64,000 nucleotides of DNA from Clavelina lepadiformis (Eukaryota > Chordata > Ascidiacea > Aplousobranchia > Clavelinidae): positions 4,032,501-4,096,500 of the forward strand of contig NC_135243.1 of the NCBI RefSeq assembly GCF_947623445.1, read 5' to 3'. Made by a program: the position numbers and the translations under genes. Under the pieces are notes generated by a model. The model did no database searches and had not been told where the DNA came from. It saw only the letters and a program-made list of their open reading frames with translations. Shown piece after piece: positions 861 to 61,930 of this stretch (its first letter is position 1; each line of letters starts with the position of its first letter).

Positions 861-908
861 TTTTAACATTCCACACATTCATGTGAAAGCACACCACGTT
901 GATTAATT
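861..908 (+). promoter_or_regulatory. Head element 1 (plus)
   Basis: Copy of the roughly 50-bp head element that opens each module: TTTTAACATTCCACACATTC, then ATGTG, then CCACGTTGATTAATT. A TATA-like TTATATAA lies at about 948, 40 bases downstream. Its inverted partner is at 29,579-29,626 with the same TATA-like string. Confidence 0.6.
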
Positions 909-1213
909 CGGATCTTTTCAAATTCTTTCGACCACGTGTTACTTTATATAAGGTTTGATTTAGCAAATACGCAACCTACTGTACTGTAGTTCGCAGATTT
1001 TTTTCAGGCCGAATAAGTACGTGTCAGATATTACATGTAAAGTATAGTGGATTCATTGTTAGTTAAATAGAAGTTATTTTTCTTTTACTTCTCATAGGGT
1101 TTGAATGAAATACATTTTGCCGACTTCATTATTTGTAGAATGATTTGAAGAAGTTTGTATAGTTCAAAACGAGTCGCTTATTAGAGTGGTTTTTCTGGTG
1201 TTGGTTTCAAATA

Positions 1214-2120
1214 CAGTGGGACCTCGTTAATCCGGACCCCGAACAACCGGAATCCCCGCTATCCGACACAAAACTGCCGGGAACGGATTTCTTCCTATGC
1301 ATTTCACCCCTTTAATCCGGAAACCCCGCTGTCCGACTCCGACACAAAAGTTTTGGAACAAATGTGCTAAATCAATCGCAATAAAATCCGATAAACCGGA
1401 TTATTAACAGTTTAGCGAAAATGATTCACGATTGTCCTAATACACTATGTACGCTGGGTAGTTAGATGACGAAACAATAGCCGATTATCTACGCATAATA
1501 ACGTTGCGGTCTTTATTGATTCAAAAGTACAGTACTGTACAGCATTGCGCTTTGTAAAAAATTTTAGCCGCACAGCTTTTTAGTCATACTATGAAATACT
1601 GTACAGTGTTTTAGAAACGAAAAAATAAATTGTTCATCAACAGTAACAAACAACACTTCCGCGGTCGCAAAAAAATACGTACATTACATGGGTTGAGTGC
1701 GGCAATCTATTGAAAACATACTGCTGCAACTCAATCGTGCTATCAGCTTTTGATATCGCATTGCGCAATGATTAGAAACAGGTCAAAGAAAGTTCAAGAC
1801 TGCTGGTCCCGCCGGAATGCTTCGCCATGCAAGAGCGGTTGTCATACCGTTCGTCACTTCTGGCTTAGAGCATTCGTCTTTAATACGGTGGTTCTGGGGT
1901 TCGACACTGGGTCGGATCATACAAAAAATATAATTTTATTTTAGTTGCTGTCCAGCCAGAAACTCGGTACTTAGAATTTCACTAGGGTGCGTACTGCGTT
2001 TTGAACACGGTGCTGCATTTGCATGGTTGATTGATTTTCTCCTTTCCGATAATCCGGAAACCCCGCTAAACCGACATTTTTTGACGAAACGAAGTGGTCC
2101 GGATTAACGAGGTCTCACTG
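1214..2120. mobile_element. pogo/Tigger-like nonautonomous DNA transposon
   Basis: This is a 907-bp element with inverted ends CAGTGGGACCTCGTTAATCC on the left and the reverse complement of CAGTGAGACCTCGTTAATCC on the right, flanked by a TA target duplication (1,212-1,213 and 2,121-2,122). A subterminal string AATCCGGAAACCCCGCT recurs inside both ends. No transposase frame is present. The opposite arm at about 29,270-29,285 preserves the empty site, so insertion happened after the arms duplicated. A tRNA-like stretch lies inside at about 1,855-1,920. Confidence 0.88.
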
Positions 2121-3419
2121 TATATCCAAACTTAAGATAACGCTGAATAAACTGTTAAACGAAACACAATCAAATTTCCTATTACTTTTACACAGTAGAA
2201 TGTTGGTGAAATGATGATTGTTTGAATTGGGCGTGATTTCCAAACGTGATTTGGCGAATTTTGCAGCTGCCATAATCTGCCTTCCACACAGGTTAAGGTG
2301 ACCTTGAGAAGAGTGCAATCGATAATGGCCACCGTGACTTGTCTTATGTGTCTCGATGATACAAATGTATGGAACATATGAAACTTGGGAAACGTAAGTT
2401 GATTAAAATGCACGAACTGAGTTTTGTTTTATTGTCACTCCTGTATCGTCATTGCATCGTGTGACTTGTTTTTCTAGATCATAGAAGCAGATCTCTGCCA
2501 GCCTAAATGAAATGAAGGTAGAAGCAAACTTGTTCAGATCTCTTGCAGAGCGTTCGAGTCTGATCACCATTTCCTAGCAACATTTCTTGTTGCTAGGTTA
2601 CTGATGGCTGGTCGTTATGTCCATAAGTGTTTGTACATAATTTACGTTCTATGTATTAATATCTGCATCCACCACACAAGCCTTTCCTAGCTACCAGCAA
2701 GCAACTTCGCTCTTTGTGCTTGCTGTGCGGATTAATGCGTGGTTAATCCGCCCTGTAAACAGTTATGTAAATGTCTTGTCTTTAGCCATCAAACCATTTC
2801 TCTTTACTACGTCGTCACCGCCACTACGAATAAGCCATTTGCAATGAACAAGTGTAAATAGTTTTGATCATGTGCGTTTTAAAGTTTTTGCCTTTCATAC
2901 TTAAACGAAAATGTAGTAAAATAAGTTTCGGGCGTTTTTAAGTCTTTTGCCGCCATCAAACGAATAGTTTTTATGAACTGTGATTGATGTGCGTTTAATT
3001 TTTGTAAATACTTTCCAACGCCAGCCAACTGCGACCCAGTTTGTGTAACACGAGTGTTTTCTTCCACATAATGTAGAGCTTCCCATTAATGTGCAATAAT
3101 ACATAGAATTTGCTTAAATGCCAACCTGTGATACATGATTCGTGTTGTACTTGTGCGGGTAAATGTACATAGTTGCTGTTGTCCGCCACTGTCCAATACA
3201 TGTATTTAATATCTGTAGACATCAAACATTGTGATTAGTAAATTTTTGCTTCCACGAGACCAGTTAATATTCTAACAATTATTCTCCATTTACTGTGATG
3301 TGCGTTTAATATTTGTAAACACTTCCAAATGTCAGAAATAAGTGTTTGCCTCCATGTGGAGTTCACATTTATGTGAATTTGAACAAAACTGCCATTGAAA
3401 TAAAATAGATAAAATATAT

Positions 3420-4453: not shown

Positions 4454-4455
4454 CT

Positions 4456-6570
4456 ACAGATATTAAATACATGTAATAGACAGTGGACGACAACAGCAAA
4501 CAGATACAATTATCCGAACAAGTACAACACTGATAACTATCACAGGTTGGCATTTAAGAAAATTCAACGTATGATTGCTAAAAACGCTGAACTTTTCAAA
4601 ATTGTGTATTAGCAGGATTGAACCAGGAGTACCAATTGTAATTAACACCCTTGGACTGTAAACGACACCAAAAAAACCAAGAAATAACCATTTATATGAA
4701 TATTTACAACAAAGACCGAAATATAACTGTTATCTAAAAACACTAGGAAATGTTTCGCCTGATAGAATTACTGTTAACTGTTGTTAAGGACTGAACTGAA
4801 CTGCTCAACTGCATTGAACGCGTCGAGTATAAAGTCAGAATCTTGAGATGTCTTCCTGGAATCCCGTTCTGTTCTCTTTAAAATAAAAGCATTTACAACT
4901 CATCATATCTCTAAAAATTCATTATTATATTCTTGCATTTTTCAAGTTGGGTTTTATTGTACAATAAATGATAGATTCAAATTAAAACGGATTATTAATG
5001 TACCACAGGAAGTGGTAAATGTACCACTACTAATGTACTTGTTTTACCACTTGCAGCTCATTTTTATAGTTAGTTGTGGTCATCTGCTATGTGGTGTGAA
5101 GGCAACCATGGTTCAAATGGCGTAAAATTTCATTCAAAAATTAAATTGCTAAAATTCTTTTGCGCATTATTGGTAATTATGACGTCACAAAGCGAGATCC
5201 ATGCATATTTCTGGTACCAGGGATGCATATCCAGTATACAAATTGTTCGCATTACCATTGCCGTATACGGATGATGAATTTTCTGAGCAATATACTTGTT
5301 ACAATATTTTATTGCAGTTGTTATAGAAATAACATAAAATATTGGCAGCTAACATACAATCCACACAGCACTAACACAAAATACTTGGCAGTTTACAGTT
5401 TGCACCTTGGCGGTTGATCATTAGGTATTTCACGAACATCAAACACAACACTCGGATGGCGTCTGACAGTTGGTACAATATCGACAAATTGTGGACACAG
5501 AGCAAACACAAATAATGTTTGGGCTGGGCATTGAAACTTGCGCATAAAATAACATTTTACGGAAGACAAAACAACTAAGTGGTGTGATTGCGGTTCACAC
5601 CAATATGTACAAGTATTTACAATTAACCGCACATCGAGCACCGGAAGGTATTCTCAAGCATTTCAATAAATTGATTGCTCTGCAAATACTGGAACATTCT
5701 TAACGAGTGGTTTTGAGGACAGACAGTACAACACCAAAAATAAAAACACCAAAACTCCATTAGGCCATGGACCTTACGGAGACATGAGCTTAAACATTTA
5801 ACGCACATCAGTCACAAAACTTCTGATGTCGGCCGAAGACTTTAAAAGGAAAAAGCAATTTTCAAGCATTTAAAGATGGAGTGCAAAAACGCTTGAAATT
5901 TAGGAAATGGCATGTTGGCAGTATTTGCTATAATATCGATTATAGCCAATACAGACACCAAATCAGTACCAAAACCAATCAACAAACCCCAACAAACCAA
6001 CTGCAAAGAAAGTTGAAGCTTGGATGAATTGATGATCAGAACTCTCAGATCCAAACATGCTGCGAGGTAATTGAACCAGATTGTTTCTACCCTCGGGTTG
6101 TTCAGTCGTGCTACAAAATCCATTCATTCAAACCTGAAAAGAAACAAAATAGGCATAACAAAATCATTTCATCATATTTAACGAATTTGCAGCTTTGCCC
6201 AGTTAAAAATATGTTGATTTTAGCTTCACCAATTGTTAATCTTCGTCTTCAATCATTGTTACACAAATCATATTGTTGACGCACTTGCGATGTAGCTTCG
6301 TAAATCACTCAACGACATAGTTTGGAAAAAATTACGCAACTACACAAGTATATAACATTTCATCATTTCACCAATATAGATCTGTAAATATTGAACACAA
6401 GTTTTTTAAATTTTGCGGCTGTATTGAACTAACACAAGGAGCGACTAGCTGTACTACCTGCAAATAAACCAACTCCACAGGTTAAATGACATTTTAAAGG
6501 ACACAATAACCAGCGGAAAGAATGGCAATTAACGTGGGTTGCCCGCACATGAACGCGTGGAATGTTAAAA
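4456..6570 (-). repeat. Module 2 (minus)
   Basis: The head element is at 6,527-6,570, block X at about 6,240-6,380 (minus-strand start TATATTGGTGAAATGATGA), and block Y at about 6,060-6,125 with GTAGAAACAATCTGGTTCAAT. The body runs to about 4,456. The whole module is the reverse complement of module 12 (36,190-38,400). It is absent from the right arm, between 27,350 and 27,640. The short open frames in it are not shared between copies. Confidence 0.65.
6527..6570 (-). promoter_or_regulatory. Head element 2 (minus)
   Basis: Minus-strand copy of the head element, with GAACGCGTGGAATGTTAAAA at one end and AATTAACGTGG at the other. The GC-rich centre is shortened relative to the 36,190 copy. Confidence 0.6.
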
Positions 6571-7599
6571 TCAAGCAAATTGACGACACAAATAACAAGC
6601 CTGGGATAAAACAATTGGCAACAAATGTACGATTGCATTGAAACAAGTCTGATAAAAGACAAAATCCATTTTTAATAAATTCAGAATGAAAGGAAAAAGC
6701 AATCATTCGTCACTTACCTTTACCAAAATATGTTTGACCTACGCTAAACTTTTAAACACCCTGATTAAACTGTTGTTTTATATTACCAAATATATATATA
6801 TGTATGAAATTATTATGTATTACCATCAACTACCGTCAACTGGGGTTGGCTGTTCAATTTAAATATGATTCCCAATGGTAACATTTCCCTGCTAGGAATG
6901 AACTGTAATTTGGTGGATGTGGCTTAGAAACATGCAAATTTTTCAATGTAATCTGCAATTAGACTAATTAATATTTGTCCGGAGGAGCGTTTAAGCTGCC
7001 GCAAGTATCGGTGATGTCATAAAAATTCAAATATTTATTCATTATCATGTAGGTGCTTATTCATTATGCACAGTATGTAATATGACTAAAATGTCTTATC
7101 AACAACAATGAGGAATATTAACTGTTAAAGTATGTATTTGAAAGTTTTACAATAAAATTTTATGCTAATGTTTTAAAGTTAATATTACAAGTTTAATATT
7201 ACAATTTATCAAAATCCAATCTGCGCATAGTGCAACTTCTGTGTTCATTTAAGGTACAGTTTAAAATGCAAGATCGTTTATAACAAAGTTAAACATAAAT
7301 TACTTCTGAAATCCTGTTTAACAGCGTGGCGTAATGTAAAAGTTTAATTTGATTAAACACGCTGCCTGAAATAGACGGATTTATACTTGTGGTCAGATAA
7401 GATTTAATTTAAAGACAATCAAGATTCAATCTTATTCAGTGCAAAGATGCTTTCCATAATGTATTGTCAAAGTAAGACGGGAATAGAAGTGCTATAATTT
7501 CAAGTTCGAAACTTCAGGTAGGAAATATCAAATTTCCAACGAGTGAGGATTCTAGTCAGGATCTCATTGAGTGAAAGAAAAATAAAATTGTTTCCGTTT

Positions 7600-8430
7600 A
7601 CAGAGGTAAAATTGCTGTTTTTACGGAATTCTCTATGCTAAGAACTTTACAAAATTTACTTTGTAAACTCGCTAGTAACATCAAAAAAGATGATGATATT
7701 TGGTTTTTCCAATTTTTATTGCAGTTGTGAAGAAAATTACACAAAATATTGCCTTGATGACAATTGATAAAGATTAGTTGGCGTTTATTTTCGCATAAAT
7801 TATAAATTTGGCGGGTGATAAATAGGTATATCAAGTACAACAAACACAAAATATATCGAATTTGAAGTCGCCAGCTACTTGCTACACAATATATACAAAT
7901 TGTAATCACAGAGAAAACACAAATAAATTTTGGGCTGGGCAGTGAGACTTAGGCATGAAATAACATTCTACAAAGGACAAAACATCAGTAGTGTGATGGC
8001 GGCCCAAGACTTAATACAATATAAAAAGGAATCTTCAAACAATTTATGATGGATTTGAAAAAATGCTCGAAATTTAGGAAATGGCAGTGGGCAGTGTTTT
8101 TGTTTAAATTTCGCTCACATTTAACACACCCACCAACTCAGAACACCACCCAACCGACTGCAAAGAAAGTTAAAGCTTGAATGAATTGGTGATCACGATC
8201 AGAAACCTTTGCGATCCAAACATGCTACGAGGTAATTGAACCAGATTGTTTCTACCCTCGAATTGTTCAGTCGTGCTACAAAATCCACTCATTTAAAGCT
8301 GGAGTAAAAGTAATAACACCCTAATAAAAGCATATCTAGCTTTGTGAATATTTGAAACAATACCATTTAACTTGGCTTGCTGGCGGTATCACATGAACAC
8401 GTGGAATGTTAAAATCAAGCAAACTTGCTT
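7600..8430 (-). repeat. Module 3 (minus), partial
   Basis: This module is a partial direct repeat of module 2. It has a head element at 8,365-8,414 and block Y at about 8,225-8,285, directly followed by body sequence matching 5,430-6,100 (for example the stretch with TTTGGGCTGGGCA at 7,925 and 5,518). Block X is missing. It joins module 4 at the TGTAATACC minisatellite. Confidence 0.6.
8365..8414 (-). promoter_or_regulatory. Head element 3 (minus)
   Basis: Well-kept copy: ATTTAACTTGGCTTGC, then TGGCGGTATCACATG, then AACACGTGGAATGTTAAAA. It points left into module 3. Confidence 0.6.
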
Positions 8431-8482
8431 CAGTCATGCATTCCAAACGAGAATAAATTGCCAAAATATTTTTACACAATAA

Positions 8483-8556: not shown

Positions 8557-9520
8557 TACAGTGCTACATTGCAATCAAACTCTAGTACTCCAACTCTTTC
8601 TCTTTTTCGATTGTGACGTCATAATAATCCTACATTGACATCGAACAGGTCAAAATAGCCAAGCTTGCTAAAACAAACAACCTAATATAATTATTAAAGA
8701 CTTTTTGATAATTATACGCTATCCTAACTATTCATCTTTGCATTATTGCCTACATGTTATAACAATAATTGCTTCTATGATCAACTTAAGGGGCTTAGAC
8801 AAGAAAACAACGTGATAAAAGAAAGGTAAATACACTAAGTAAGCAAAAACTGTAATTAGAACGTGGAAGATATTATGAAGTGTTCCAGGTTAAAACAAAG
8901 TTTGTTAACTCCAAGAATTGCTGTTGTGATCGCTAGGACACATTTTCTGCTTCAAATAACCTATACATCAATAAGTCGAACATGAATACAAACCAAGTCG
9001 GGAATAAGCTTTGGATTGCGGCGCAAGACTTGGATTACGTTGAACTATATGGTTAAAGGCTAACGTGATATTAAAAAGAATTTTTAACGGTATACTTCAG
9101 AAATGTTACAATATTTATGTTGGTTATGTTGCGAATATCGAGTAGTCACCAGCATTGCCATTATACAGTACAGGTATTTTATTAATATGGCTAATATCTT
9201 CCGAAGCGTTACACTCGTATCAAGCACAAACTCAAAATATGCCTGTACGGCTTAAACATAATTACTGCAAATTCAACACTTCATGTAGAAATTTTTAAAC
9301 ACACGAGGGCGGCAAACACTTGCGAAAATCTGACATGATATTTTGACATTCACGCACATGCAGTACAATTGTACCGATGGAGGCAAACACTTAAGATATT
9401 TACATACATCACTATTAACGCACATTGAGCATCTTTGATGGAAGTCTTCGTTTTACATACATTAAACGACCATAAGTACAAAATATTCTGGTGGCCAACA
9501 CTTATATAGTCCATTTCATA

Positions 9521-9935
9521 TGCGCATTAGTCACGTGCAAATTGAAATGACAGAACTCTTTCCAGAACAGGATTTTGAACATTTTAAACGCACATTAGTC
9601 ACGTGCAAATTTAAATGACAGAACTCTTTCAAGAACAGGATTTTGGGTATTTTAAATGCACATTAGTCACGTGCAAATTGAAATGATAAGAACTCTTTCA
9701 AAAACAGGAATTTGAACATTTCAAATGCACATTAGTCACGTGCAAATTAAAATGATTGAACTTTTTTAAATTTACAAATTTTAGAGGCACTTTAGTCACG
9801 TGCCAAATAAAATTCAGAATCTCTTGACGCAAAACGGAATTTCTACAAATTTCAAATGCACATTAGTCACGTGCAGATAAAGATGATAGGAACTTTTTTC
9901 TTCAAACTTAAAATGCACATTAGTCACGTGCAAAA
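9521..9935. repeat. Tandem array carrying seven TCACGTGC E-boxes
   Basis: Seven imperfect units of 56-72 bases each contain GCACATTAGTCACGTGCAAA or a close variant, with the CACGTG core at about 9,532, 9,600, 9,668, 9,736, 9,796, 9,868 and 9,924. The reversed array in the other arm (about 25,945-26,235) has five units with only three intact cores. The palindromic E-box is the best-conserved part of the unit. Confidence 0.85.
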
Positions 9936-10798
9936 GTAACATGATGAAACTGTCATGAAAAGGTAATATTTAAACGCTCATTAAACAAACAGCCAACTGG
10001 GACGATGGCGACAATTCTTATAAAACAGCACATCAAGGAGAAGCGTGATGGCGGCTTATACTTAAGTAGATGGTTCTTATGAGAACAAGCAGTTACCATA
10101 AATCCAACATCCAGGTATCAGAAACTCAAATGAACGTACTCTTGTTGATCAGACTAACCGTGGCACAACTCATCCAAACGCTCGTCAGTGAAATTGAACA
10201 AGTTTGCTTCTAATCTTAATTCGTTCAGTCGTGTAACACGATTTGCTGCAAAGTGATCTGGAAATCAAGTAGGAAACATTGAAATGCAAAGTTAAGAACT
10301 ATTTCAATTACTAAACTTTGTCAGTATATTGACATGAACAGGCAACATGCAGTTATGTTGAGAATTAATGTTTGCCTAAATCATACTTCGCACAGTTTAC
10401 TGCTGGCCGGTGTTGGTCAAAGCCTGAACACTTACATCATCGCAACAAAAATCAACGTACTTTTTAACTTCTTCATTTTCATTCTCAGGTAAATTTCTGC
10501 TGCTTGCAGACACTGATCCCCACTGGACACTGTTGCATCATCGCGACAGGTTTCATCACCGTGACCTTTGACGATTGCTCTCTTTTCAAAAAGGTCACCT
10601 TGACCAGCCACACTGCAAAGTGAGCTTTGAAATTCGCCCGAACGACATCGTTTGGAAAACACATTTCCAAAATTTCTCATCATTTCACCAACATCATTCT
10701 GCTAACACAAGGAGAGACCAACAGTAACACCTGTGAATAAGGCAACCCCACCAGTTAAGTTTCATTTTAAAGAATACAACAAGCAGAGGAAAAATGCC

Positions 10799-10857
10799 AA
10801 TTAGCATAGCTTGCCGGGGGAGGAGGGCAATATCACTTGAATGCGTGGAATGTTAAA
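10799..10857 (-). promoter_or_regulatory. Head element 4 (minus)
   Basis: Copy of the head element with a short G-rich expansion in its centre. TGAATGCGTGGAATGTTAAA and the extended flank with GTGATGACACAAACAACACG are kept, as in the 25,142 and 36,190 copies read in reverse. Confidence 0.55.
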
Positions 10858-11489
10858 ATCAAGCAAAGTGATGACACAAACAACACGCCGCGTGCAAAAC
10901 AATCAAATGAATGGCAACAAAATGTACGATTTCATAGACGCACAATTGACAAAAAATGAAAGTTTAACCCTGATGGTGAGCACTCGTTTTAAACTTGCGG
11001 TTACCTTAAAATTGGAATAAATGTGGCCTCAATCAAATATTTTACATCTGACAAAATTTTCCAAAATATTTTTACACATAATTGAAGCAAAACAATTTCT
11101 TTTTCAAACAAGAAAGCTTTTTCATGTGAAATTCAAAGTGACGGTAAAGGGAGATGCAAGCGCTAGTACAAGTTCAATTTATTGCAAAGAAAAGTAGTCA
11201 GTATAATATGGCAGAAAAATAAGTTTTCAATATTATACATAATGGTTATTTTAACTGTTGATGCTGAAAACCTGCGGCTAAAAGTGAAATATTTGAAGTA
11301 GTTTGTGACTTAATACATTGTAAGATTGACGTCATAATACGAAAACAGTGTGACATATCGTTGGTATTAGGGCCAAATATAAATCGAACAACTCGTATGG
11401 AGACAAGATTTAGGTAGGTAGCCTATACACATTTTTTTATTAGTAAACATAAATTCGTTGCACGAAACTCTTGCATTAGTTAGATCTAT

Positions 11490-12780: not shown

Positions 12781-14424
12781 ACACAAACCGTGTAATGTTT
12801 AAACAACCATCAAGTAGACTGGACGTTTGTGTGAATGAAGGCACTACAAAAACGAATTGAAATTAAACACGCATCATATGCAAAACGTGGTCTAATGGCG
12901 GCAAAACACTTTAAAATACTTGATAATGTCCTACGCATATCAGGCACAGCAAACATAGCAATCACATGTTTTAAATCAGATTTTTTACAACAGACATCAA
13001 AGTCGGAAAACCGACAAATTTGGATGGCGGCAAACACAAAATGTCACAAAACGCTTCAGTTTCTGTACAAACTTTAACGCTCATCAAGTAAACAAACAAA
13101 TATGATGACGGGAAATACTTTGCGCATAAATACAGAGAACTAGCTGGTCTGGTAGCGGCAAACACTTAATACTTTCACAAAATCCCTGATAATGTCCTAT
13201 TCACAGCAGGTGCAGAAATCACACTTGATGTTGAGTAATACATATTAGGAATCAAATCACCAATAGAAGCAAAAACGGTCAACACTTGAGCTTCAGAAAG
13301 CAATGGGGCTAATATTTGACAGTCATAGGAGATTGAAACTGGCAATACGTGAAACTTTGTCGTTAGGGAACTTATGTCATGGGAACTTATGTCTTAGAGC
13401 AACTTATGTCATGGGAACAATAAGAAATTGAACATTGGGTAAATCTTACAGCTTAACTCATTGGAACAATACTCCATTATGGAACGAAAATTAAAAAAAA
13501 TATTGCAACATCAGATAATAGTGAAACATTAAAATGAAAAGAACTTATTGTTTTATGCTGGATTATGGAACAAAATGTAAACTGTTGGGAACAGTGCGTT
13601 ACTATAACAGCTGGGGCTGAAACTAAAGTATCAAACGCAATTGAAATAACTGGCAATTGTTGAATACTAATAGTGAATTATTCATAAAAGCACAAACAAA
13701 AGTTACCTGCTAGCGCACATACACTACCAGTGACAACGAAACAACCACCAACCAGCAAACAAATTAAAAGTTTCCATTAATTGGTGATCAGAGTAACTGC
13801 CATCGCCTAACACAAAGACGCTTCGAGGAAATTGAACTAGTTTGCTTCTACCCTCGGTTCGGTCGAAACGGCAGCAACATCCGCTTCTAAGTGACCTTAA
13901 ATAAAGACATTTAGATCATTCACAATCATTACAACAAATATTCATTTCAATCATTTTTCCCAAATCTGTATAAAGTTAAAAAAGGAAATCAACTTACGTC
14001 ATGTCGATTGAAAATACGGCAACTCAAAATCTAATCATGTCACCAAGATTTCTGTAAAAGTTAAATACGGAAGTTTTAGCTACGTGCACTTCATCCCTTA
14101 AAACGAAAACAGCACAACATCCAAACTTTACCAAATGGTTAAGTCAAAAAATCATTTTGTAACGCTACTTTTCTTAGAGATTCAAATCCGCTCCAATAAC
14201 TCTGAAACTAACTAAACCATCCGACTGACAAGCAATCACTCACTTGTAAAACTTTGACACATGCTGTCTTCATCAAAACAACCGAATTCAGAAGCGTGCA
14301 AAGTAGGCTTCGTCTTGCCAAAAACACTACTTTTAGTGTAACAGACATAGTTGAAGGAATTCAGAGAAACGCAATCAAACAACGTGGTTTGCCCCGGGCG
14401 TTAATTGGACACATGGAATGTTAC
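12780..14424 (-). repeat. Module 5 (minus)
   Basis: The head element is at 14,375-14,424. Block X is at about 14,005-14,060 and on the minus strand is flanked by TTTTACAG and GAC|GTAAGT. Block Y is at about 13,800-13,870, and the body carries GGCGGCAAACAC repeats. It is a direct copy of 17,780-19,280, sharing for instance GCAATCAC...CACCTGTA-like strings and GTGCAAAGTAGGC. Confidence 0.6.
14375..14424 (-). promoter_or_regulatory. Head element 5 (minus)
   Basis: Divergent copy: CAACGTGG, then CCGGGCGTTAATTGG, then ACATGGAATGTTA. It stands back to back with head element 6, about 1.1 kb away. Confidence 0.5.
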
Positions 14425-14639
14425 AATCAACCAAAATGAGTTCAGCAATTTAAGTTTTTGTACAAAAAGTTCATCAAAAGTTATAAAGTGCTGTGACACT
14501 GAACAAAAATGTGCATTGACGCAATGCTCAATTTTCAAGTTCAATAGGAATAATAAACAAAAGAAAAAATCCAGCAACACGCATTCTTCACATAAAAATA
14601 TCTTATCCAAATGACAGACATCTTAGAAATAAAAGGGCA

Positions 14640-15510
14640 TCTATATAAAGATGTTCCATTCAATTTAATGTCTATGCATTGACAAACCATTTTCTATAAG
14701 CCAACATAATCAAATTGTAGTACCCAAAATAATAAAAAAAATAAAAAAAATAAATTTATGAATTATTAACAACCGAACAAGCAACGAAGGGTAGTAATCT
14801 TCTTTAAAAAAAGAAAATTATCCTATAAACCTTACTTCAAACAGATTTGAATTTTACCGTTGTATACAGTAGTTGCTGACATGTACACTTTGCTCATATT
14901 TTTTCATCAATAATTATTATTAAATAGTAGTTAAATAAATAATTAAAATATTGTTAAATAAATAATTTTTAGATTATATAATTGACCTGATGTAAAAAGC
15001 TGAGGTTATAATTGGAATCAGTGCTCAAAAGGTAACCAAAAACACGTTTTACTTTTATTTCAGCAAAAATGATGCAGACCAATGTAATTAATATTAGATT
15101 GTCATGTTCTTTCAGTCTTCATTGTACCTTTGTTTCATAAATTAGTCGCTTAAAGAAAATTAAAGAATCGATAGATTTTAAATCAAGGATTTAATTTTGA
15201 AAAAATTGAAATGTTTTTCAGCAATCATTGAGCTATACATTGTAGTTCAAATTGCAAAGATTAAAACAATCTCTATTGTCCTAAAAATATTAGTTTTAAA
15301 TGATATATGGTCTACGAACATGAAGCAAGCCCTACAGTTATATGTTTTTGTTGTGTGTTTTATGATTTGTATTCTCAGTTGATGATATTTGTTTCCTTTC
15401 CATTTCACATAATTTGTCATTTCAGCATTACTGCAATGAACGGATATTTTGTTGTCATTCGCTCAATGTTTAGTACCGGGCGTGCAATATCTCTCATTAT
15501 TTTGCTTGAT
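14640..15510. other. AT-rich spacer between back-to-back modules
   Basis: This is the divergent spacer between head elements 5 and 6. It is very AT-rich (TAAATAAATAATTA-type runs near 14,920-14,975). No gene, repeat end or RNA gene is recognised. Confidence 0.5.
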
Positions 15511-22320: not shown

Positions 22321-22325
22321 ATTGA

Positions 22326-47088: not shown

Positions 47089-47540
47089 TAGTTTATTTTC
47101 GTTTTCTAGTTTGTCCTCCGTTGTACTTCCCTGCACGCGCGGTCATTTAGGTTTGAGTGTTGAATAGTTTATATGTTGAAGAGACCTCTTATGTAATTGT
47201 TGTAGATCTTAGACCTTCCTTGTCTACGGTACAGCCGTTTGCATGTGAATGATTGTACATTGGGCTCCAGAAATTATCTTTACATTGAGTAGTTTGTTTT
47301 ATTTAGTTTTAGTTACTTGTTCTTTTTTCGTCGAAGTCATTAACTAAGTCTCCCTTGGAGATTGCATTTTTTCTGCGATGTGACAGGAGTTACATGAAAC
47401 ATGCATTGACCAAAACGTAACAATGCAAACGTGCAGTTGAACTAAAATCAGTTTTGTTAAAATTTGTTTTTACTTTACAGAAAACGTCAGCGATAAACTT
47501 TTCGTTTGTGTTTCAACATTGCACCTTTCTGCCCGTTACT

Positions 47541-48778
47541 ATGATGATAGAAAGTTCTTCCGATGAAGGTTAATTTGAACAAAATACTTAAATCAGCTGT
47601 TTGGTAAAACGTCAAAAATTAATTTTGGTTTTACGATTGTCGACAAACGCACAAACAAGCTTTTGCTGTTTACTCTGAGCAACTTCGCATAGTCCTTAAT
47701 GCCGTATTAGCAGTTTCCGTGATAGTTAAAATGACCCTGCTTATTATTAATCAAAATATTAAAAATAACAGAAAATGAAATTGAGACGCTGGATGCTTTG
47801 GGAGGAAAATACTTTTGCAAGAGAAGTGAACAAAGTTTATTGTATTTTAGCTATTTGCTGCATATTTTTACATAATTTGGAAGCGTATTGTGTTATTTAA
47901 CTTTATCTTAATGTCAAGGAAATCATAAAGATTTCCAATTTAAAAAAATGAATAATTTTCTAAATTCATTATTTCGCTTTGCAGAAAAAAAAGTAGAAAA
48001 AATTTCGGAAGGACGATGTTGGTTTCCTCCAGTAGCAATACGACTTGTATACGAAACCTGCGCGGTATTCATTTGACTGCTTTAAAATTTCTTTGTCGTT
48101 TTTGTGATGCATTATTTTGATGTAGATCGTGAGTTCCAGAGGAGGAGAATTCAAAATTGGCCCATGCACGGTCTCAATTCCAAAAGAAGCTTTACTAACT
48201 CCCTATGAGTTCAAGTTCATGTTACTTTATGGAAAAGCGCGTTTCAAGGTTGAAATGAACTAGCTAACTTCTAACTAAATTATTTTAAACTAATCTTTTA
48301 GACTTTCTAGACTAACTTCTTCTTCTTTTGCATAAGAGCCCTGAAGAGCGTGTTGTTACACCAACTTTAGATTGCATGCCAGCACATAGTTTTTTGGAGT
48401 CAGTAACCGTAACGCTTCCAGCATTCCATGATCATGACAGGTCATTTACAGTGAATGTAAGTTGCCAAAACGAAAATAACCACTCTACTTTCGCCGATAG
48501 TTAAGTAAGCAGCATATATTTTAGATGCAACGAAGCTATCATGGAATAAAGTGGGAACATTTCATGAAATTAAAAATCCATCCTGAAAATGACTACATAA
48601 GATTTACGACTAAAGATTTATGTTTGTAAGTATTGGATTTTCAATTTTACTTTTTAAATATTGATGTTTCCAATCTTCTGTTATATTTGCTAGATATTTC
48701 AAAACGCTTATATGCTGATCTTTTTTCAGGATTCGAGCGGTGAAACAAAACGAACAACATTCGAGTATTATTGATTAG
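47541..48778 (+). CDS. ZU5-domain protein, short copy (ZU5 only)
   Basis: The exons are 47,541-47,568, 47,772-47,825, 47,985-48,064, 48,126-48,248, 48,337-48,456, 48,525-48,625 and 48,730-48,778. All introns are GT-AG and all phases agree, giving 184 residues. Residues about 60-150 form a ZU5 domain: GGEFKIGPCTVSIPKEAL, then YEFKFMLLYGK, then VTPTLDCMPAHSFLESVTV, matching the family pattern of a glycine-rich strand, an IPKGAL turn and a TP.L.C.P...F..PV core. A conserved LDALGGKYF motif precedes it. The last exon aligns with the start of the second-domain exon of the other copies (IRAV against FRAV) but stops after 16 codons, so the UPA-like domain is missing. It is either a truncated gene or the upstream part of a longer alternative transcript. 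ZU5 domains are known in ankyrins, UNC5 receptors, ZO-1 and PIDD; the role here is unknown. The donor of the second exon (AA|GTGAAC) is the weakest call. Confidence 0.7.
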
Positions 48779-48948: not shown

Positions 48949-50724
48949 GTATTGAATGCAAAGCAAATAAAAAACAAAAAATAAAGAAAATTGAAAGTAA
49001 TGAGCTCAACGCGTTAGGAGGGAAATACTTCAACAAAGGTAACAAGTTCTGAAATTCATTTACTATTTGCATTATATTAGTAATATGCCATTTTCCACTT
49101 TATAATTTAATTAAAAGCAAACAAAAATTTTAAAATATTTTTTCAAAATGGAACTTTGGTTTTGCAGCGAAAGAACTGGAAAAAATTTCGGAAGCACGGT
49201 GGTGGTCTCCTCCAGTAGCAATACGACTTGTATACGAAACCTGCGCGGTATTCATTTGCACTACTTTAAAATTCGTTTATCGTTTTCGTGAAGTACTGTT
49301 TTGATGTAGATCGTAGGAGAGAAAGGGGATGAAATCAGAGTTGGCCCATGCACGATCACAATTCCAAGAGGAGCCTTGAGGAAGACCTATGAGTTCAAGT
49401 TCATGTTACTTTACGGAAGAGAACGTGTTAAGGTTTTAGATAGGACGGTTGGAATCGTTTTTAATTGTTGTCATAAGTCATAAGTCATAAATAATGGCAG
49501 TCATAAGTTTCTCAAGATTGTCCTTGTTTTTTTTTGCACTAGGATCATGGTCATGTTGTCACACCAACCTTAGATTGCTTCCCAGCTCATGAATTTGAGA
49601 AGCCAGTAACAATACTACTTCCAACATGTTATGTTCGAGAAACTTTAGTTTCATTCACAGTAAGTATCACAGTAACTTAACAGGAAAAATACCATCCGTT
49701 ATTACTTACCATTTACACATTTAAACATATAAGCAATATGCCTTTTAGCCACAAAGAAGCCGATACGGAAGAGTATGGGAAAATTTGAAAAGTGAAGATT
49801 GTCGACCTGGCATTCCTTTTATAACGTTTGAAGTTAAATCTTTATCTCTGTTAGTATTTAGTTGTTACCGTATAAATAGTGCACCTTTAAAAGTTTTGTC
49901 ACGGTGAGCAAATATTTAAAATTATTCCTTTGCTAATCAATTCTTTCTAGTTTTCGGGCGGTCATTGCAAGTGCCAAAATATTTCATGTCTGTAAAAAGC
50001 GGATGATATTTTTGTGCTACCGCCACCCAGGAGATGAAAGAGCTAAACCACACTTCACCTGGGAACTTCGTGATGACGTTATCCATTCTGATAAAATGTT
50101 GTTGCAAAGAGCCGGCTACCAAATAACATTTGATGTCGAGTTTGTATTTGAAAACTATATAACAACAATCTTAATATTTTTGACAGACAAAGTAACCTTC
50201 ACATTTATTTACATATTTATATAATATTACTTCCTAAAGTAAACATAGCTGTAATAAGTGAACATCGTTCATATTGTAGGGTTTTAATCATTTTTCTTCT
50301 ACTGTAAAGGGCAAAAGGAACCTTGAAAGTAAAGTTGGAAAGTCCGAACAATATCATCAAACCAATCACAAAGAGTGTTAAGGCCAACGACATTTTTGAG
50401 CAGGGATTTTTTCTGCGGGAAAATTTTTACCTTTTGGAGCACGTGAAACGTTCACAAATTGAGAATTTTTCCTACAAAATTTTGTGGAACAAAAAACTTG
50501 CTTGCAGTGAAAAACTTTCCTTTTCTGCAAATAGCACGGATAGTAAGTTTTTAGAATCTGGGTTTTTAATTTACTATTAAAGTTCGCTTGCAAATCTCTA
50601 AAACTTTTTAAATTCTGATGTGCAACCATGGATATCCCACGGATTTGCATGGAAATTATTATTTTAATTTTCAGACGATTCACGGTCATCATCCACCCCC
50701 ATCCTTGAACCAAGTGACGGCTAA
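48949..50724 (+). CDS. ZU5 plus UPA-like domain protein, plus-strand full copy
   Basis: The exons are 48,949-49,038, 49,168-49,247, 49,310-49,432, 49,543-49,659, 49,749-49,849, 49,951-50,139, 50,310-50,542 and 50,675-50,724 (stop TAA). They are in phase throughout. With a 28-base first exon the product is 336 residues. That first exon is either 47,541-47,568 shared with the upstream copy, or an alternative at 48,712-48,739 (ATG...AGCG|GTGAAA); both have the right phase. The ZU5 domain contains GPCTITIPRGAL, YEFKFMLLYGR and VTPTLDCFPAHEFEKPVTI. The UPA-like part contains FTWELRDDVIHSDK and DIFEQGFFLRENF. The protein ends in a short serine-rich tail and has no death domain or membrane segment. 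Its second-last domain exon uses a donor 8 bases downstream of the position used in the minus-strand genes, where the equivalent dinucleotide is AT. AATAAA lies at 50,909. Confidence 0.72.
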
Positions 50725-53412: not shown

Positions 53413-55974
53413 TTACCGGTAAAATGGAAGCCAGCTTCGTACGATGCCCCATAAAGATTTTTCATCCATTTTTTCCTTTTTCTCAAACGTTGGAGCAGTA
53501 TCTGAAGTATGCCAGTTGACTAAACATAGCGAACTAATAGAATATATGCAACTCACTCTATTTTGTCGTGAAAGCAAGTGTACTATAGTGTTTTATGAAA
53601 TGTTATGATAAATATTATGCATAAAATAGCTTCGAAAGATAACCACGTAGTACTATTAACCACAACCAATCAAAAAATCAATAGTTGTTCGCAAAATTTA
53701 ACAAAAACTCACCTGGGATGATGTTCTCGATATAAGTGCAAGTTGGCGCAATAATGCTTTTTGTCGGCACATATTTTATCATGCATGTGCACATGTCAGG
53801 GTCGAGTAGGTTTTTCTCAATTTGGAAATTTTGCCGCAAAAAAAATCCTTGCTTAAAAACATCCTCACTTTCAATGTTTATCTTATCAGGTTTTATTTTT
53901 GCTTTGTAATGCGTAAAGGTTACCTCCAAATCTTTTCCTGACCTTAAAAACATTTTGTTTTATTCTACCTTTTTACACAAATAACTGTAAACTGCTAGTC
54001 TCTTTTAATCAACTGGTTTGCCAACGTCTTAAGCCAAGTGGTAAAATTATTGGTTACTCCTCTGTAGTTTCGAAACCTTATGGTTAGATTTTCTCTGAAA
54101 CATTTTTCGTTGTTCACTAAATCATTAGAATCCATGACTTCATCACGAAGTTCCCAAGTATATTCTGGAAGGTCGGATGGGGAAGTCGAGGCGCACCGAT
54201 GACGGTAACAAATTAAGAGCATGTGTTTCACCAGCAAATTGAATTGCCCTGGAACAAAGCAATCAACTCGAAGCCTGCAAAATTTAATATTTCTAGATTT
54301 GTTTACTTACTCAACCATGCTCATAAAACATTATTTATATAACAAGTCACTTAACCAAGATAAAGAATTCACGAGAAAATTCATAGGTCTAGGGCCTTCA
54401 TCACCATGTCTATAAGCGTTATCTGGTATTCCCGAAACATTCCTTTGGGAACTATACCATAACCTACGTCCCTGCAATATCAAAAGATATTGGATATGCA
54501 CTGGTGAAAAATGGAAAAAATAAGTTTTTATTTTCTTCCACACTGAAACCTGGTGTGAAGATGCGCCATCTACTGGAGACACTGGTTTTCCTGAAGATGC
54601 CGGCGCGGCTTGCCATGTTTTTCCATTCTGACTTACATGTGGCTGAAACACACCATTCTGGTTTATACACATTGCTAAAATTAAAACAATAAATTCGTCA
54701 TTTTTAAAACTCACTTTAACTGAAGTTTCCTTTTCGGGAACATAACATGTTGGAAACTGCACAACTAATGGCTTTCGAAATTCGCTTGCTGGAACACAAT
54801 GCAATGCTGGCGTAAGGACCAGCTCATCAGGGCTCTATTTGCAAAGAATCGACCAAATTTTAAAACCACGTACTATTGTATTCAAAATGTTAAAAACTAG
54901 TTGGCGTAAGTATACAATATAATGCAGTAAATCTGTAAGATTGAGCATCTCCCTACAATATAATTGGTAATTAGTACAATACAAAAGCACACAGTAAGTA
55001 TAAGTGGTAATTACAAACCTTTCCATAAAACAACGTGAACTTAAACTCGTAGGTGCTTTCCAAAGCATTTTTTGGAAAGCTGACCTTGCATCCACCAAAG
55101 CTGACACAACCTCCATTTATACCAATGATCTGTAACAACAATAAATATAAGAAATACCTTAAGATCTTTTATGGTATAATGGATTTATCATACACATACC
55201 GCGCATTTTTCGTAAGCGAATTGTATTTTTATGGAGGTTGACCAGCATCTTTCGATCGACGATGATTCGACATGTTTCTTGTCTGCACAAAATACAATTA
55301 GTTTTAAAAAGCTGTAATAGGCGACGCCAGAGATTGAATTTTATGACAAATCACTCACAAGATCAAGAGAACAATCATTTGTAGAAATAGAAACTGCAAT
55401 ACCGAGAACTAAACTGAGATATATCTTATTAATTTCTGTAAAGCTATCACACTTTTGTAACTGTACTACTAAATATATTTCTAAAAATACATTTCTAAGA
55501 AATACTAACTAGAAGGCAGAGAAGCAAATTACAAGACAGATTAAGAGTAGACGAAAATTGCAACCAGCTTAAGTTTCACCTTTTTCGTGTGGAAATATTC
55601 CTCCCAATGATTCAAAAGATTCTTGTTCGTTTTTTTCTGGCTCTAGTGTACAAATACTGAACTTCAGTTTAATTCAATTACTTGAAAAATAGGAACCGCT
55701 TTAGTTGCTACTCGGCATTTTCGACCTATGCAAAATTGTTTATAAATAAATTTTATAAAAACAAACTAAGACTATACAGGTTTGTGTTTAGCAATGTTAA
55801 AAAAATTGACAAGAACGAATGTAAGTGAACTTTTTCTTTTGGCTTTACAATAATAATACCCGACACGTTGTAGAAATCTGCCGGAAGAAGTTTGGGAAAA
55901 TTCCACAAATCATTCTTGGCTCTATCATTGAAAATACTGTAAACATTCGTGCTGAGCAGTTTGCCTGTCGACAT
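53413..55974 (-). CDS. ZU5 plus UPA-like domain protein, minus-strand gene A
   Basis: Ten exons in order: 55,974-55,860, 55,642-55,580, 55,282-55,200, 55,129-55,019, 54,834-54,715, 54,642-54,550, 54,471-54,356, 54,274-54,077, 53,942-53,713 and 53,501-53,413. All are GT-AG and in phase, giving 405 residues. A FESLGGIFP motif lies at about 50-57. The ZU5 core (about 87-164) has NGGCVSFGGCKVSFPKNAL, YEFKFTLFYGK and TPALHCVPASEFRKPLVV. The UPA-like region (about 234-376) has LICYRH, YTWELRDEVMDSNDL and DVFKQGFFLRQNF. The C-terminus is VRSWLPFYR. There is no signal peptide, membrane segment or death domain, so the protein is probably intracellular. ZU5-UPA pairs elsewhere act as a signalling supermodule; its job here is unknown. 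The start is uncertain, because the base aligned with gene B's ATG reads ACG here and I used the next in-frame ATG. A head element lies about 640 bp upstream. Confidence 0.8.
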
Positions 55975-56611
55975 CGTTTAATCAAATTAGTAATTTACGA
56001 AACATTTATCAAGGTTGTCCTTTAAAATGAAAAAAGAAAATCTTAACAAATATTTTCTGAATGTTCTTCGCGTTGTACTAACTTGTAAAATAGTGCATAA
56101 GCTTAAAAAGAAATCAGTGTGTTTACCGTATTGATTCTCAGTTTAAATTGATTCAAAAAAACCTTTGGTTAAATCTATTACACACTTGGCATTTATCAGA
56201 ATACTAGTAATAACAAATGTCAAAAGAATTCAAAACACAGATTGAAAGATTTACTTTTGCCTAATAACATACAACTATAAAAAAGACCATTACCCTACAG
56301 TACAGGCCTACTTGCACATCATGAAAGATTAGAAGCTTACTACAGCTGTAAAAGAACATGTGCTACTACCGAGTACAAACGCAAACATTTAACTACACCG
56401 AATTAATCTCATTAAATAAGATTATACGAAGTTTCAATACTTCGAAGATTATGTGCATTACTATTGTAAATATAAGGATCGAAAAATTACAAAAAACAAC
56501 TTTATTGCTATGTAAGTGTTACACAACCTAGGTCTTTGTATCTATACTGAAACACGCGAAAGACAAACTTGCAACCTACTGCGAATGAAATTCAAAGAAT
56601 GTAAGAAAAAC

Positions 56612-56674
56612 GTAATTAACGTGGCCCGTCAGCAGAGTGCAGAATCACACAGAAGCGTGTAGCGCTAGAATCAA
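56612..56674 (-). promoter_or_regulatory. Head element 16, upstream of ZU5 gene A
   Basis: On the minus strand: GATTCTAGCGCTACACGCTT, then CTGTGTGATTCTGC, then CGGGCCACGTTAATTACG. CACGC, TGTGAT, CGGGC and CACGTTAATT fall in the same order and spacing as in the module heads. Confidence 0.6.
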
Positions 56675-56699
56675 ACAAAAAGATTATCAATTCTAATGA

Positions 56700-58240: not shown

Positions 58241-58244
58241 GCGT

Positions 58245-61200
58245 TCAAAATCCAAGCAGGTTTCGAACTAACTCCAATATTGTTCTTCTTCTTCTTCTTC
58301 TTCTTCTTTCCACTGTTTCAAAAACTCTCCCAATTCTGAAGACAGGCGGCTCGACTGAAAACATGAAACTTTCATTTAGTGAACTTTCATTTTGTGTCGT
58401 GAAAGAAGACGTACGGTAATGTTATAACATGAAATATATTTACAAATATTAATATATCTACGCATTAAGCTCAAACAAACAAAACTCACCTAGAAAGATA
58501 TCACATAAAAAATCAATATTCATTACACGAACATTGTTATTTCTAGACACGAATGTTATCGTGCATTTGCAGCCCGAAAGGTCAAGTGCGTCTTCTTTTA
58601 AAATTAGGAATTTTTCCCGCAAACAAAATCCTTGCGCAAAAACATCCTTGCTTTTAATGCTGGTTTTCAAAGGTTTCACTTTGGCATTAGGATGAGAAAA
58701 TACCACTTCCAAATCTTCTCCTGACCTTAAAAACATTTTGTTTTATTCCGCCTTTCTTCACAAATACAACCATTCTACACAATACAACCAGCAGAACTAC
58801 CAGTCTCTTGTAACCAAGTAGTTTGCCAACGTATTAAACCAAGTGGTAAAATTGTTGGTTACACCTCTATTACTTTCAAAACCTGATGGTTATGTGGTTT
58901 CTGACACATTCTCTTTCGTTCAATAAATCATTAGCATCAATGACGGCATCGCGAAGTTCCCAAGTGTATGTTGGAAAGGACATGACGTTTGGATGAATGT
59001 AAAATATTAAGACCATGCGCTTAAAAAGTGAATGGAATTGCTTTATATCAGCGCTATCAACTCGAAACCTGAAACATTCAAAATTTCTTGATATGTTTGC
59101 GTATTCCCAGGCTTGTCCATGGGACATTTTTTTCTGTCCCATCTCATCCTATCCCATAGCAATTCATGCCTGTCCCATCCCATCCCATCCCATCCCATCC
59201 CATGCCATCCCATCAAAATACAATTCCATAAATGTTATTAAATTTATGGAAATTTAAGTCTAATGTCTATTAGAATTGACTACATGTACAAAGAGAGATA
59301 CAAAACGACAAAATTTATTGACTTTGTTAACTTTAAAGTTCAGAAAAGTTGTCTATCTATGACAATTTATTATCATTGGTACTCATATTCCGAGTCACTG
59401 TGCTCATTTAGCAAATTTTCAATGCCATGGGAATTGCAATTCGTGCTGTTCCATCCCATCCCATCCCATGGGACATTTCCCATGGGATTCCCGTGGGAAT
59501 CCCATTCCCATGGACAAGCACGGTATTCCACAATGTGCTTGTAACATTTTTTATATAAAAAATGAACTAACCAAGATAAAGATTCCAAGGCAAAAGTTAT
59601 AGGTGGAGGACCTCCGTTATCAATATGACCATCATCGTTACCTGACGATCCTGTAGGCAGCTGTAATATAGAATGATGTTGGATATGCAGTGTTGCAAAA
59701 TTGAAACAATAAGTTTTTATTTTCTTCGACACTGAAACCTGATTTGTAATTGCACGATGTTGTCCAGATAATGGTTTTTCTAAAGACGTCGACCCGGCCT
59801 TCCATGTTTTTCCATTCTGACTGAATTGTGGCTAAAACACAGCTTTCTGGTTTATACGCATTTCGAAAATTAGAAACAAAAAGTTCTCTTTTTGTGAAAC
59901 TTACTCTAACTGAAATATCCTCTTTTAGAACATAACATGTTGGAAGCTGCACGATTATTGGCTTTCGAATTTTTATCGCTGGAACACAATGCAATGCTGG
60001 CGTAAGGACTAGCTCATCAGGGCTCTATTTGCAAAGAAACGACCAAATTTTAAAACCACGTACTATTGTATTCAAAATGTTGAAAATGAATGTTGAAGTA
60101 AGTGTGCAATATAGTGAATGCAGTATATGCAGTAAATCTGTAAGATTGAGCATCTCCCTACAATATAACTGGTAATAAGTACAATATAACAACAAACAAG
60201 TATAAGTGGTAATTCCGAACCTTTCCATGAAACAACGTGAACTTAAACTCGCAGGTGCTTTTCAAAGCATTTTTTAGAATGATGACCTTGCATCCACCAA
60301 AGCTGACACAACCTCCATTTATACCAATGATCTGTAATAAAGATAAATATAACTAATACGATAGAATCAATTATGGTATAATAGATCTTTGATACACATA
60401 CCGCACATTTTTCGTAAGCGAATTGTATATCAATGGAGGTTGACCAGCACCTCTCAATCGACGATGATTCGACATATTTGTTGTCTGCACAAAATACAAT
60501 TAGTTTAAAACAGCTGCAATAGGCGACGCCAAAGATTGAATTTCATGAACTAAAATGGTTGCAATAAATTCTCCTACTTCGGTATTTGAAATTGTTTGTA
60601 GTAACCCAAGCAAGTTCGTCAAAAAAGATATATATAAGTTGAAGCAAAAAGCTTTTATAAACATATCTACTGTTTAGTATAGAGTATATAGGTATAGTAC
60701 AACTTCAGAGTATTGATTTAAGCGATTTACATTCATACAACATATGTCGGTTGCAAGTTAAGAAATTAGTATAAAGCAGCTGTAGTATAGTACTACTATA
60801 TGTAGTAAGCGACTCCAAAATTTCACTTTGTTTTAACAATCTATCACAAGAGCAAACGAACAATCATTTCTAGAAGTATAAACTAGTATAACGAGATCAA
60901 AGCTAAGGTATATACCTGTATTATCAATTTCAATAAAACAATGACGCATTCATACGCATCCTACTAAACAAAACAATAAAAATACTTTGAAGAAATACAT
61001 TAATTTAGAACACAGAGATATAAACTACAAAAGTAGAGAAAATGCAACCGGCTTCACAAGGAAATAGTCCTCCCAATGCTTTAAGATAATTTTCTTCTTC
61101 GATTTTTGGTTTTTCTGTACCTATGGTAAACATTACTTTAATGCAATTATTTGAACAAAAAATAAAAATAAAACATTTTAGTTCCTGCTCTGCATTTATA

Positions 61201-61531
61201 TCCAATTCACAAATTTTTATAAAAAGAATTGAAATATTTTTAACTAAAAACATAGTAGCAATCACGACTACAGCTATTTGTTTAATAATGGTACAACCTG
61301 CTTTACAGAAGCGATAATAACAGAACATCAAATTTTGCCGAAATAAACAAAAATAAAAATGACACCTGAATCGTCGTCGAAGTCTTCCGGAAACGGAAAA
61401 CGATCGGGAAAACTCCATGGGTCTTCTTTGACTCTTCGCTTGGAACCGTCAGAAATACTCCGGTTGAATATTTTCCTGTAGCTAGTACTCGCTTCTTGGT
61501 AATGTGGTGGTAGTGGTATATGCACTGACAT
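58245..61531 (-). CDS. ZU5 plus UPA-like domain protein, minus-strand gene B
   Basis: Ten exons in order: 61,531-61,366, 61,114-61,049, 60,484-60,402, 60,331-60,221, 60,024-59,905, 59,831-59,739, 59,660-59,572, 59,068-58,883, 58,725-58,490 and 58,354-58,245. All are GT-AG and in phase, giving 419 residues. It is a tandem duplicate of gene A. Exon 1 is longer and acidic at its end (PFPEDFDDDSG). YLKALGGLFP follows. The ZU5 core has GGCVSFGGCKV and TPALHCVPAIKIRKPIIV; its IPKGAL-type turn is altered to IILKNAL. The UPA-like part has YTWELRDAVIDANDLL and DVFAQGFCLREKF. The last exon encodes eight arginines from an AGA microsatellite (58,283-58,309), then ELVRNLLGF. An element with CCCAT repeats sits in the seventh intron. 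A head element lies about 340 bp upstream. Confidence 0.82.
59108..59522. mobile_element. Small inverted-repeat element with CCCAT repeats
   Basis: This 415-bp insertion lies in an intron of gene B. Its ends are CAGGCTTGTCCATGGGA and the reverse of CGTGCTTGTCCATGGGA, and 7-bp GTATTCC duplications stand at 59,101-59,107 and 59,523-59,529. It is therefore probably a nonautonomous DNA transposon, hAT-like in size of duplication and CAG start. The interior carries tandem CCCAT runs at about 59,175-59,215 and 59,450-59,470. Gene A has no insertion at the equivalent place. Confidence 0.75.
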
Positions 61532-61871
61532 TGTGCTAACTTGTAAATTAGTGCATACGCTTAAAAAATTTCAACATCATATCATATCATATTTATCATG
61601 TTTTATCATGTCATAGTACTAATAGCAAATGTCCAACAGATCATATATTAGATTGAAAAAATCACTTTTTGCCTGATATAATATAAATCAAGTCAAAAAG
61701 GTACAGTACAGGCCTACTAACACACCGTAAAAGACAAGAAGCTTAATACTGAGTATCAGTTAAAAATAAGTTTTACATAACCTAGGTCTTAGTATCAACA
61801 CTGACACAGGCCCAAGATAAATTTGCAATCTACTGTGAAAGAAAATGCAACCAAAAGAATGTAAGACAAGG

Positions 61872-61930
61872 GTAATTAACGTTGCCCGCCCGCCCGCAGC
61901 ATCACGCAGAAGCGTGAAGCGCAAGAATCA
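61872..61930 (-). promoter_or_regulatory. Head element 17, upstream of ZU5 gene B
   Basis: On the minus strand: TTGCGCTTCACGCTTC, then TGCGTGATGCTGCGGGCG, then GCAACGTTAATTACC. It has a small GGGC expansion in the centre. It is closest to head element 16. Confidence 0.6.

Follow-up and report, generated by a model that had tools for sequence, protein, structure and literature searches.

A putative proximal promoter shared by kinase-like and ZU5-like genes and by protein-less modules in Clavelina lepadiformis

Introduction

Why should one short DNA element stand both in front of genes and in front of units in which no protein is recognised? The question is raised by a stretch of contig NC_135243.1 (C4) of the ascidian Clavelina lepadiformis, where such an element, here called the head element, recurs at the start of noncoding modules and of ZU5-type genes. 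We analyzed C4:4,032,501–4,096,500, a stretch of 64,000 nucleotides within a 209-Mb genome of 95 contigs; this whole stretch is referred to as the window, and positions given without a contig are counted from its first letter. The original prediction had described 17 copies and proposed a ‘locus-specific promoter or coordinating element’ common to two unrelated kinds of unit. The locus was not described in any of the matches listed from the open-licence literature on ZU5-kinase genes, on promoters that are shared or retained, and on pseudogenes that are transcribed.

Results

Copies of the head element

Seventeen seed copies were located in the window by consensus matches. We equate these with the 17 copies of the original prediction, an assumption based on the equal number and on the three sites named there. 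Using nhmmer with a profile built from the seeds and iterated on the window, 18 copies were found (E 2e-13 to 3e-28). The search was then extended by 100 kb of sequence flanking the window, 50 kb from a second cluster and 30 kb from C6, to 244 kb in all: the retrained profile yielded 43 head copies, 34 of them in cluster A (C4:3.99–4.12 Mb), eight in cluster B (C4:15.68–15.70 Mb) and one on C6. E-values of the retrained profile come after it had absorbed its own hits, and the search was repeated with the window-only profile, which gave 42 copies in the 244 kb, 24 of them outside the window. No match below 1e-3 appeared when the 244 kb were shuffled four times with an order-1 Markov model or searched in reverse, the best control E-values being 0.12 (shuffles) and 0.3 (reversed sequence); with 18 profile copies from 17 seeds and none in the controls, the repeated element is real. 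The described parts of its consensus are present, but CCGCCGGC occurs exactly at only three places in the window and is therefore a loose consensus. Only some of the copies also retain the stretch upstream of the element.

Every copy had been thought to head a unit. This holds for 16 of the 18 window copies, which lead into three ZU5-type units and 13 modules with one or both of two recurrent blocks, E2 and E3, downstream on the same strand. Module subfamily S1 is headed at 838–930 (+, E 3e-17), a putative promoter copy with TATATAA at about 944, and at 29,556–29,648 (−, 9e-20), likewise with TATATAA. The heads of S3 lie at 6503–6605 (−, 5e-23) and 36,155–36,263 (+, 3e-28), those of S4 at 10,785–10,893 (−, 2e-21) and 25,106–25,212 (+, 2e-26), and those of S5 at 14,352–14,460 (−, 6e-22) and 19,206–19,313 (−, 4e-19). 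One copy each was assigned to S6 (15,475–15,575, +, 8e-21), S2 (22,303–22,400, +, 9e-24), S7 (40,279–40,381, +, 1e-17) and S9 (44,933–45,034, −, 1e-23), the S2 and S7 copies with TATATAAA. At 8354–8436 (−, 3e-20) the head belongs to a shortened module whose E3 block starts 62 bp downstream. The two exceptions, a truncated copy at 20,650–20,715 (+, 2e-13) and the eighteenth copy, outside the 17 seeds, at 35,067–35,162 (−, 3e-15), are followed by neither E2 nor E3. The three ZU5-associated heads that had been named were all found and each is directed at ZU5-like exons: 47,020–47,116 (+, 1e-13) lies 5′ of such exons at 48.3 and 49.5 kb, and 56,593–56,692 (−, 1e-14) and 61,853–61,949 (−, 2e-13) each lie 5′ of one.

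Kinase-like and ZU5-like genes of cluster A

Cluster A contains nine open kinase-like exons without internal stops, and when one of them was searched against the genome, these nine ranked best among 137 matches. Pfam kinase models match the four kinase sequences that were scanned, one of which consists of two exons joined by eye, at 9e-19 to 3e-14. With the kinase-like exons go first coding exons of the MSFS...VVVKVF type and C-lobe exons, nine of each. Comparison of six of the nine kinase exons showed variation mostly at third codon positions (753/503/1026 for the three positions). Judged by position, the cluster's eleven ZU5-like exons fall into six that come after kinase genes, six of the nine genes being so followed, and five in units that show no kinase match. 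The Pfam ZU5 model matches none of the cluster's ZU5-like exons, with 11 matches elsewhere, and hmmscan made no ZU5 call on the cluster exons tested; since Pfam calls none of them, the name refers to resemblance and to a family-built profile. In the window this profile finds ZU5-like exons at 48,316–48,501 (+, hmmsearch iE 1e-22) and 49,543–49,677 (+, iE 3e-22), and, combined with open frames, at 54,331–54,834 (−) and 59,638–60,024 (−).

Seven of the nine kinase genes carry a same-strand head 282–706 bp 5′ of the start of the first coding exon; one of these seven has CTG in place of the ATG start of the others. With the window-only profile six of the seven heads fall below 1e-3 and the seventh (C4:4,012,095) reaches only 0.11. 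The remaining two kinase genes are without a same-strand head of their own, and the eighth gene shares its intergenic space with the head of a divergent neighbour. In the 3.1 kb upstream of six more distant kinases no head was detected in any case (best E 21). In four cases, C4:4,002,976 (+) and the three in the window, the head is followed by ZU5-like exons without an intervening kinase match. The 43 heads thus comprise seven on kinase genes, four on ZU5-like-only units and 32 on modules. Cluster B and the C6 site, with nine heads, gave no kinase match, nor was there a strong match to the ZU5-like or C-lobe profile.

Exon-like blocks in the modules

Two blocks recur 3′ of the heads: with retrained profiles, 20 copies of E2 (<1e-3) and 26 copies of E3 were found in the 244 kb. 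In genome-wide pattern searches, 11 of the 11 matches listed for each block lie at places with the head element, and the controls gave 0. Same-strand E2 and/or E3 follow 28 of the 32 module heads, and neither follows the other four. E2 was located by nhmmer at 2291–2364 (+), 10,533–10,605 (−), 15,992–16,062 (+), 22,924–22,994 (+), 25,387–25,459 (+), 29,036–29,109 (−), 31,959–32,003 (−, partial), 32,445–32,516 (−) and 40,691–40,735 (+, partial); no head is near the copies at 31,959 and 32,445, the latter also being matched by the kinase exon profile. The copy at 15,992 reads NASLFHTDKDDLLEKIAIV in the kinase frame and is matched by that profile as well.

E2 resembles exon 2 of the kinase genes, but with a broken frame, and several lines connect the two. 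The window-only E2 profile reaches 4e-4 on one kinase exon but only 0.25 and 0.36 on two others; the retrained profile gives 7e-12, 0.002 and 0.003 for the same three exons, having absorbed the first hit. In the opposite direction, the kinase exon profile matches the frames of four E2 blocks at iE 0.0017–0.0063 and the MSFSxLRSYIAS-type starts of six modules at 0.035–0.6; among the module frames that it matches are NASLFHTDKDDLLEKSAIV (iE 0.0017) and MSFSYLRSYIAS (0.066). Exon order, acceptor and start region also agree by eye between modules and kinase genes. These lines are modest one by one; taken jointly with the shared head, they establish E2, as judged by sequence comparison, as a decayed form of the kinase genes' first coding exon. 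The modules had been described as units with no recognisable protein: they indeed show no kinase or ZU5 match, but a protein ancestry is present in the form of E2.

E3 lies in the window at 2481–2556 (+), where a splice-acceptor-like sequence precedes it, and, by nhmmer and acceptor inspection, at 6052–6126 (−), 8217–8292 (−), 10,174–10,252 (−), 13,813–13,890 (−), 18,660–18,736 (−), 23,156–23,228 (+), 25,639–25,717 (+), 28,844–28,919 (−), 36,635–36,711 (+) and 44,101–44,166 (−); a headless copy at 38,532–38,607 (+), found by nhmmer, represents a module fragment. The E3 protein profile finds no kinase gene strongly, so not every part of a module can be traced to the parent. An origin of E3 from the kinase C-lobe exon was rejected: the C-lobe profile is strong on the nine kinase genes and on no module, the E3 profile on none of the genes. 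Coding constraint was not seen in six hand-picked copies of the 26, in which variation over the three codon positions is 69/103/92 and codon differences are 25 synonymous vs 141 nonsynonymous.

Conservation of the modules

The modules may not be mere remnants. Possibly, if with clearly less than even probability, they are functional: descended from the kinase-ZU5 genes, they would yield a set of related spliced noncoding RNAs, or else tiny peptides; selection would then act on promoter, splice sites and exon blocks, and the products could perhaps regulate the intact paralogues in trans, or the modules serve as promoter decoys. Local alignments across subfamilies are consistent with this, as they concentrate on the head region (eight alignments in four of ten representatives, 4–6 in five and one in one), with 0–6 elsewhere in the modules and secondary maxima over exon 2 and E3. 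Cross-subfamily identity is 70–80% in short head-only alignments and 59–79% in longer ones. The opening of exon 2, TTGGTGAAATGATGA, occurs 30 times with up to two mismatches, by eye with an AG no more than about 12 nt upstream in 28 of the 30, and a pyrimidine-rich YAG lies 5′ of 23 of 26 E3 copies, a count biased upward because the best YAG within a limited stretch was chosen. E3 is present in eight of ten module subfamilies, was not found in the kinase genes and is not coding-like; its conservation may therefore postdate the loss of the kinase. Between subfamilies, promoter, splice acceptors and exon blocks thus appear as conserved islands without substitution of the coding type.

However, within young subfamilies the head does not evolve systematically more slowly than the rest. 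For six subfamilies the fraction of alignment windows with conservation equal to or above that of the head was 0.07, 0.50, 0.75, 0.13, 0.19 and 0.80; S1, S5 and S8 were omitted, large parts of them being unalignable, and S9 is a single copy. Fisher's method, applied by hand to these six fractions, yields p of about 0.24, a rough value as the windows overlap. A structured RNA in E2 or E3 was also rejected: RNAalifold finds only a weak hairpin in E2 (−4.1 kcal/mol, unfavourable covariation term), whose pairs are broken in one or two of nine sequences at most positions, and no consensus fold in E3. Rfam gave no match at gathering scores in the window and none at E up to 0.5 in positions 1–47,000. 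Consensus donors are seen in only some of nine representatives, 10 of the 43 heads are without the best-kept stretch of the element, ACATTCCA, within one mismatch, and the older constraint could stem from copies that were still coding. In its fullest form, this reading sees an amplified family of about 30 genes for spliced noncoding RNAs, produced when a kinase-ZU5 gene lost its kinase and ZU5 body; parental promoter and splice sites would have stayed under selection while coding constraint was lost, and the family would have spread with that promoter to three places. To this we assign a slightly smaller chance still; if true, gutted and intact members would be kept under one switch.

TATA spacing and a TEAD-type core

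The arrangement downstream of the head bears on its nature. In 13 of the 43 heads, which come from five subfamilies, TATAWA occurs at +15 to +32 from the end of the element. Counted in 20-bp bins, it occurs 18 times in the two that cover 0–39 vs a mean of 1.3 per bin elsewhere, although the bin at −300 contains 16. The TATA-like string that had been noted downstream is therefore borne out for these 13 copies but not for the other 30, which include all seven kinase and four ZU5-type heads. Head and TATA together suggest the layout of a proximal promoter element 5′ of a core promoter. The head might instead be a coding or 5′ UTR exon, as it lies 5′ of exon-like blocks in fixed order; with TATAWA at a set distance downstream in five subfamilies and with a variable length of the head (the copy at 10,785–10,893 carries a 10-nt insert), we consider an exon improbable.

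ACATTCCA is found exactly in 28 of 43 heads and with at most one mismatch in 33. It contains CATTCC, which the available text of PMC4546604 gives as the TEAD consensus, and TEA-domain exons are present on C1 of this genome. The likeness to the TEAD site as given there is confined to CATTCC inside ACATTCCA; such a short match is weak evidence, and the rest of the head has no named factor. Binding of a TEAD-type factor to the putative core is a lead only.

Genomic distribution

All genome-wide repeat counts given here are minimum values. With up to three mismatches allowed, a 26-nt pattern taken from the element's first half occurs in at least 21 places: 16 in cluster A (C4:4.00–4.115 Mb), four in cluster B (C4:15.68–15.70 Mb) and one at C6:4.652 Mb. 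The 19-nt second half alone, with two mismatches, gave at least 16 matches and a 134-bp DNA query at least 17, all those listed (16/16 and 17/17) lying in clusters A and B; the reversed 26-nt and 19-nt patterns gave 0 matches each. Among the matches listed, the head element is thus confined to three places, the clusters A and B on C4 and one site on C6. The C6 copy aligns over ~2.56 kb with two copies of cluster A at 86.5–87.5%, and kilobase blocks, introns included, are common to the C6, B and A copies. By these alignments, the duplication of the modules is one at the DNA level that included introns. Viral contigs numbered 0.

The head copies are numerous and lie on both strands, and a 2.56-kb unit sits ectopically on C6, as a transposon end or dispersed repeat might produce, but with every genome-wide match listed in the same three places and none at unrelated loci, reversed controls of 0, and family exon blocks downstream of 28 of 32 module copies, such an origin, which the original prediction had named as grounds for its own rejection, is highly improbable.

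Discussion

The head element would be the proximal promoter, just 5′ of the TATA/start region, of one tandemly expanded gene family. Intact members of this family would encode a kinase-like domain, followed by ZU5-like exons in six of nine. Duplication of kilobase blocks would have carried promoter and gene start together, and most copies would subsequently have lost the body with its kinase and ZU5 parts. What may be left in these gutted copies is the promoter, a non-coding first exon, the E2 remnant, E3 and splice-site-like sequences. Duplication and gutting would explain why the same element is found before kinase genes, ZU5-like-only units and protein-less modules.

We hold it highly probable, from the sequence comparisons, that the head is the inherited promoter of one kinase-like/ZU5-like family and that the modules are promoter-bearing pseudogenes. 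Most modules can be read as gutted relatives with a promoter because 28 retain E2 and/or E3 and E2 appears to be a decayed kinase exon; both the E2 match and that of one kinase head lose strength when the profile is not retrained. Given the kinship of E2 and the lack of coding-type variation in E3, the most fitting view of the modules is that of gutted derivatives free of coding constraint. Position, orientation, TATA spacing and the restriction to three places point to a promoter that is probably locus-specific, its activity being putative. The promoter half of the original proposal is thereby favoured. A special coordinating element is unneeded, since most modules would be gutted paralogues copied together with their promoters, and the notion of one element common to two unrelated kinds of unit falls, most units being relatives. 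The overall case is mostly one of ordinary gene-family evolution.

The nearest known case is human ABCC6 with its pseudogenes ABCC6P1 and ABCC6P2: according to the available part of PMC2329642, these carry a near-identical ABCC6 promoter and are transcribed, and knock-down of ABCC6P1 lowers ABCC6 mRNA. Like them, the modules would be pseudogenes with the promoter of the parent. Unlike them, the 32 promoter-bearing copies described here lie in three places, are far more diverged, have lost the coding middle and are known from DNA. A likeness also exists to transcribed pseudogenes as treated in the accessible text of PMC2753554, decayed copies of coding genes in which transcription signals may persist; the modules differ in that DNA sequence alone reveals them.

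The protein-less modules of this locus would thus be explained as gutted relatives of the adjoining genes. With 43 copies of one putative promoter, on seven kinase genes, four ZU5-like-only units and 32 modules, the family would offer a clean test case for whether promoter-bearing pseudogenes are still transcribed and whether their parents are affected.

Motif and repeat content of the cluster

The motif TGATGTGCGTTTAAT was counted with up to three mismatches (≤3) and is enriched in both clusters of C4: in cluster A (3.99–4.12 Mb) 51 sites were observed versus ∼11 expected, and in cluster B (15.68–15.70 Mb) 18 versus 3, compared with 1 versus 2 on C6, which carries a single further site of the family. 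The motif is spread over the whole of cluster A, for example at 2985, 3296, 23911 and 39295. The modules of subfamily S4 contain tandem arrays (9512–9955 and 25926–26246) of ∼57–71-bp units with AGTCACGTGCAAATT or its complement. The module headed at 838 is the host of a 907-bp DNA transposon (1214–2120), presumably Pogo-like, with inverted ends of ∼25 bp each (CAGTGGGACCTCGTTAATCCGGACC and CAGTGAGACCTCGTTAATCCGGACC) and TA on both flanks; a sister copy near 29,280 lacks this insertion.

Kinase-like genes and neighboring exons

Adjoining the cluster, BIR-type exons were found at C4:3,974,866–3,985,948; the single exon scanned matched Pfam BIR with an E-value of 7.5e-16, and three related pieces were also seen. 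The kinase exon itself has at least 137 matches genome-wide, on C2, C4, C5 and C9, many of them in dense arrays. Active kinases carry HRD at the position where the aligned exons have HGx, and are expected to contain a DFG motif. Because all six aligned exons show HGx and DFG was seen in none of the six, the kinase genes of this region (C4:3,991,429–4,128,642) are probably pseudokinases. One head, on the minus strand at C4:4,105,938–4,106,016, lies between two divergent kinase genes starting at 4,105,359 (−) and 4,106,993 (+), and is a candidate two-way promoter.
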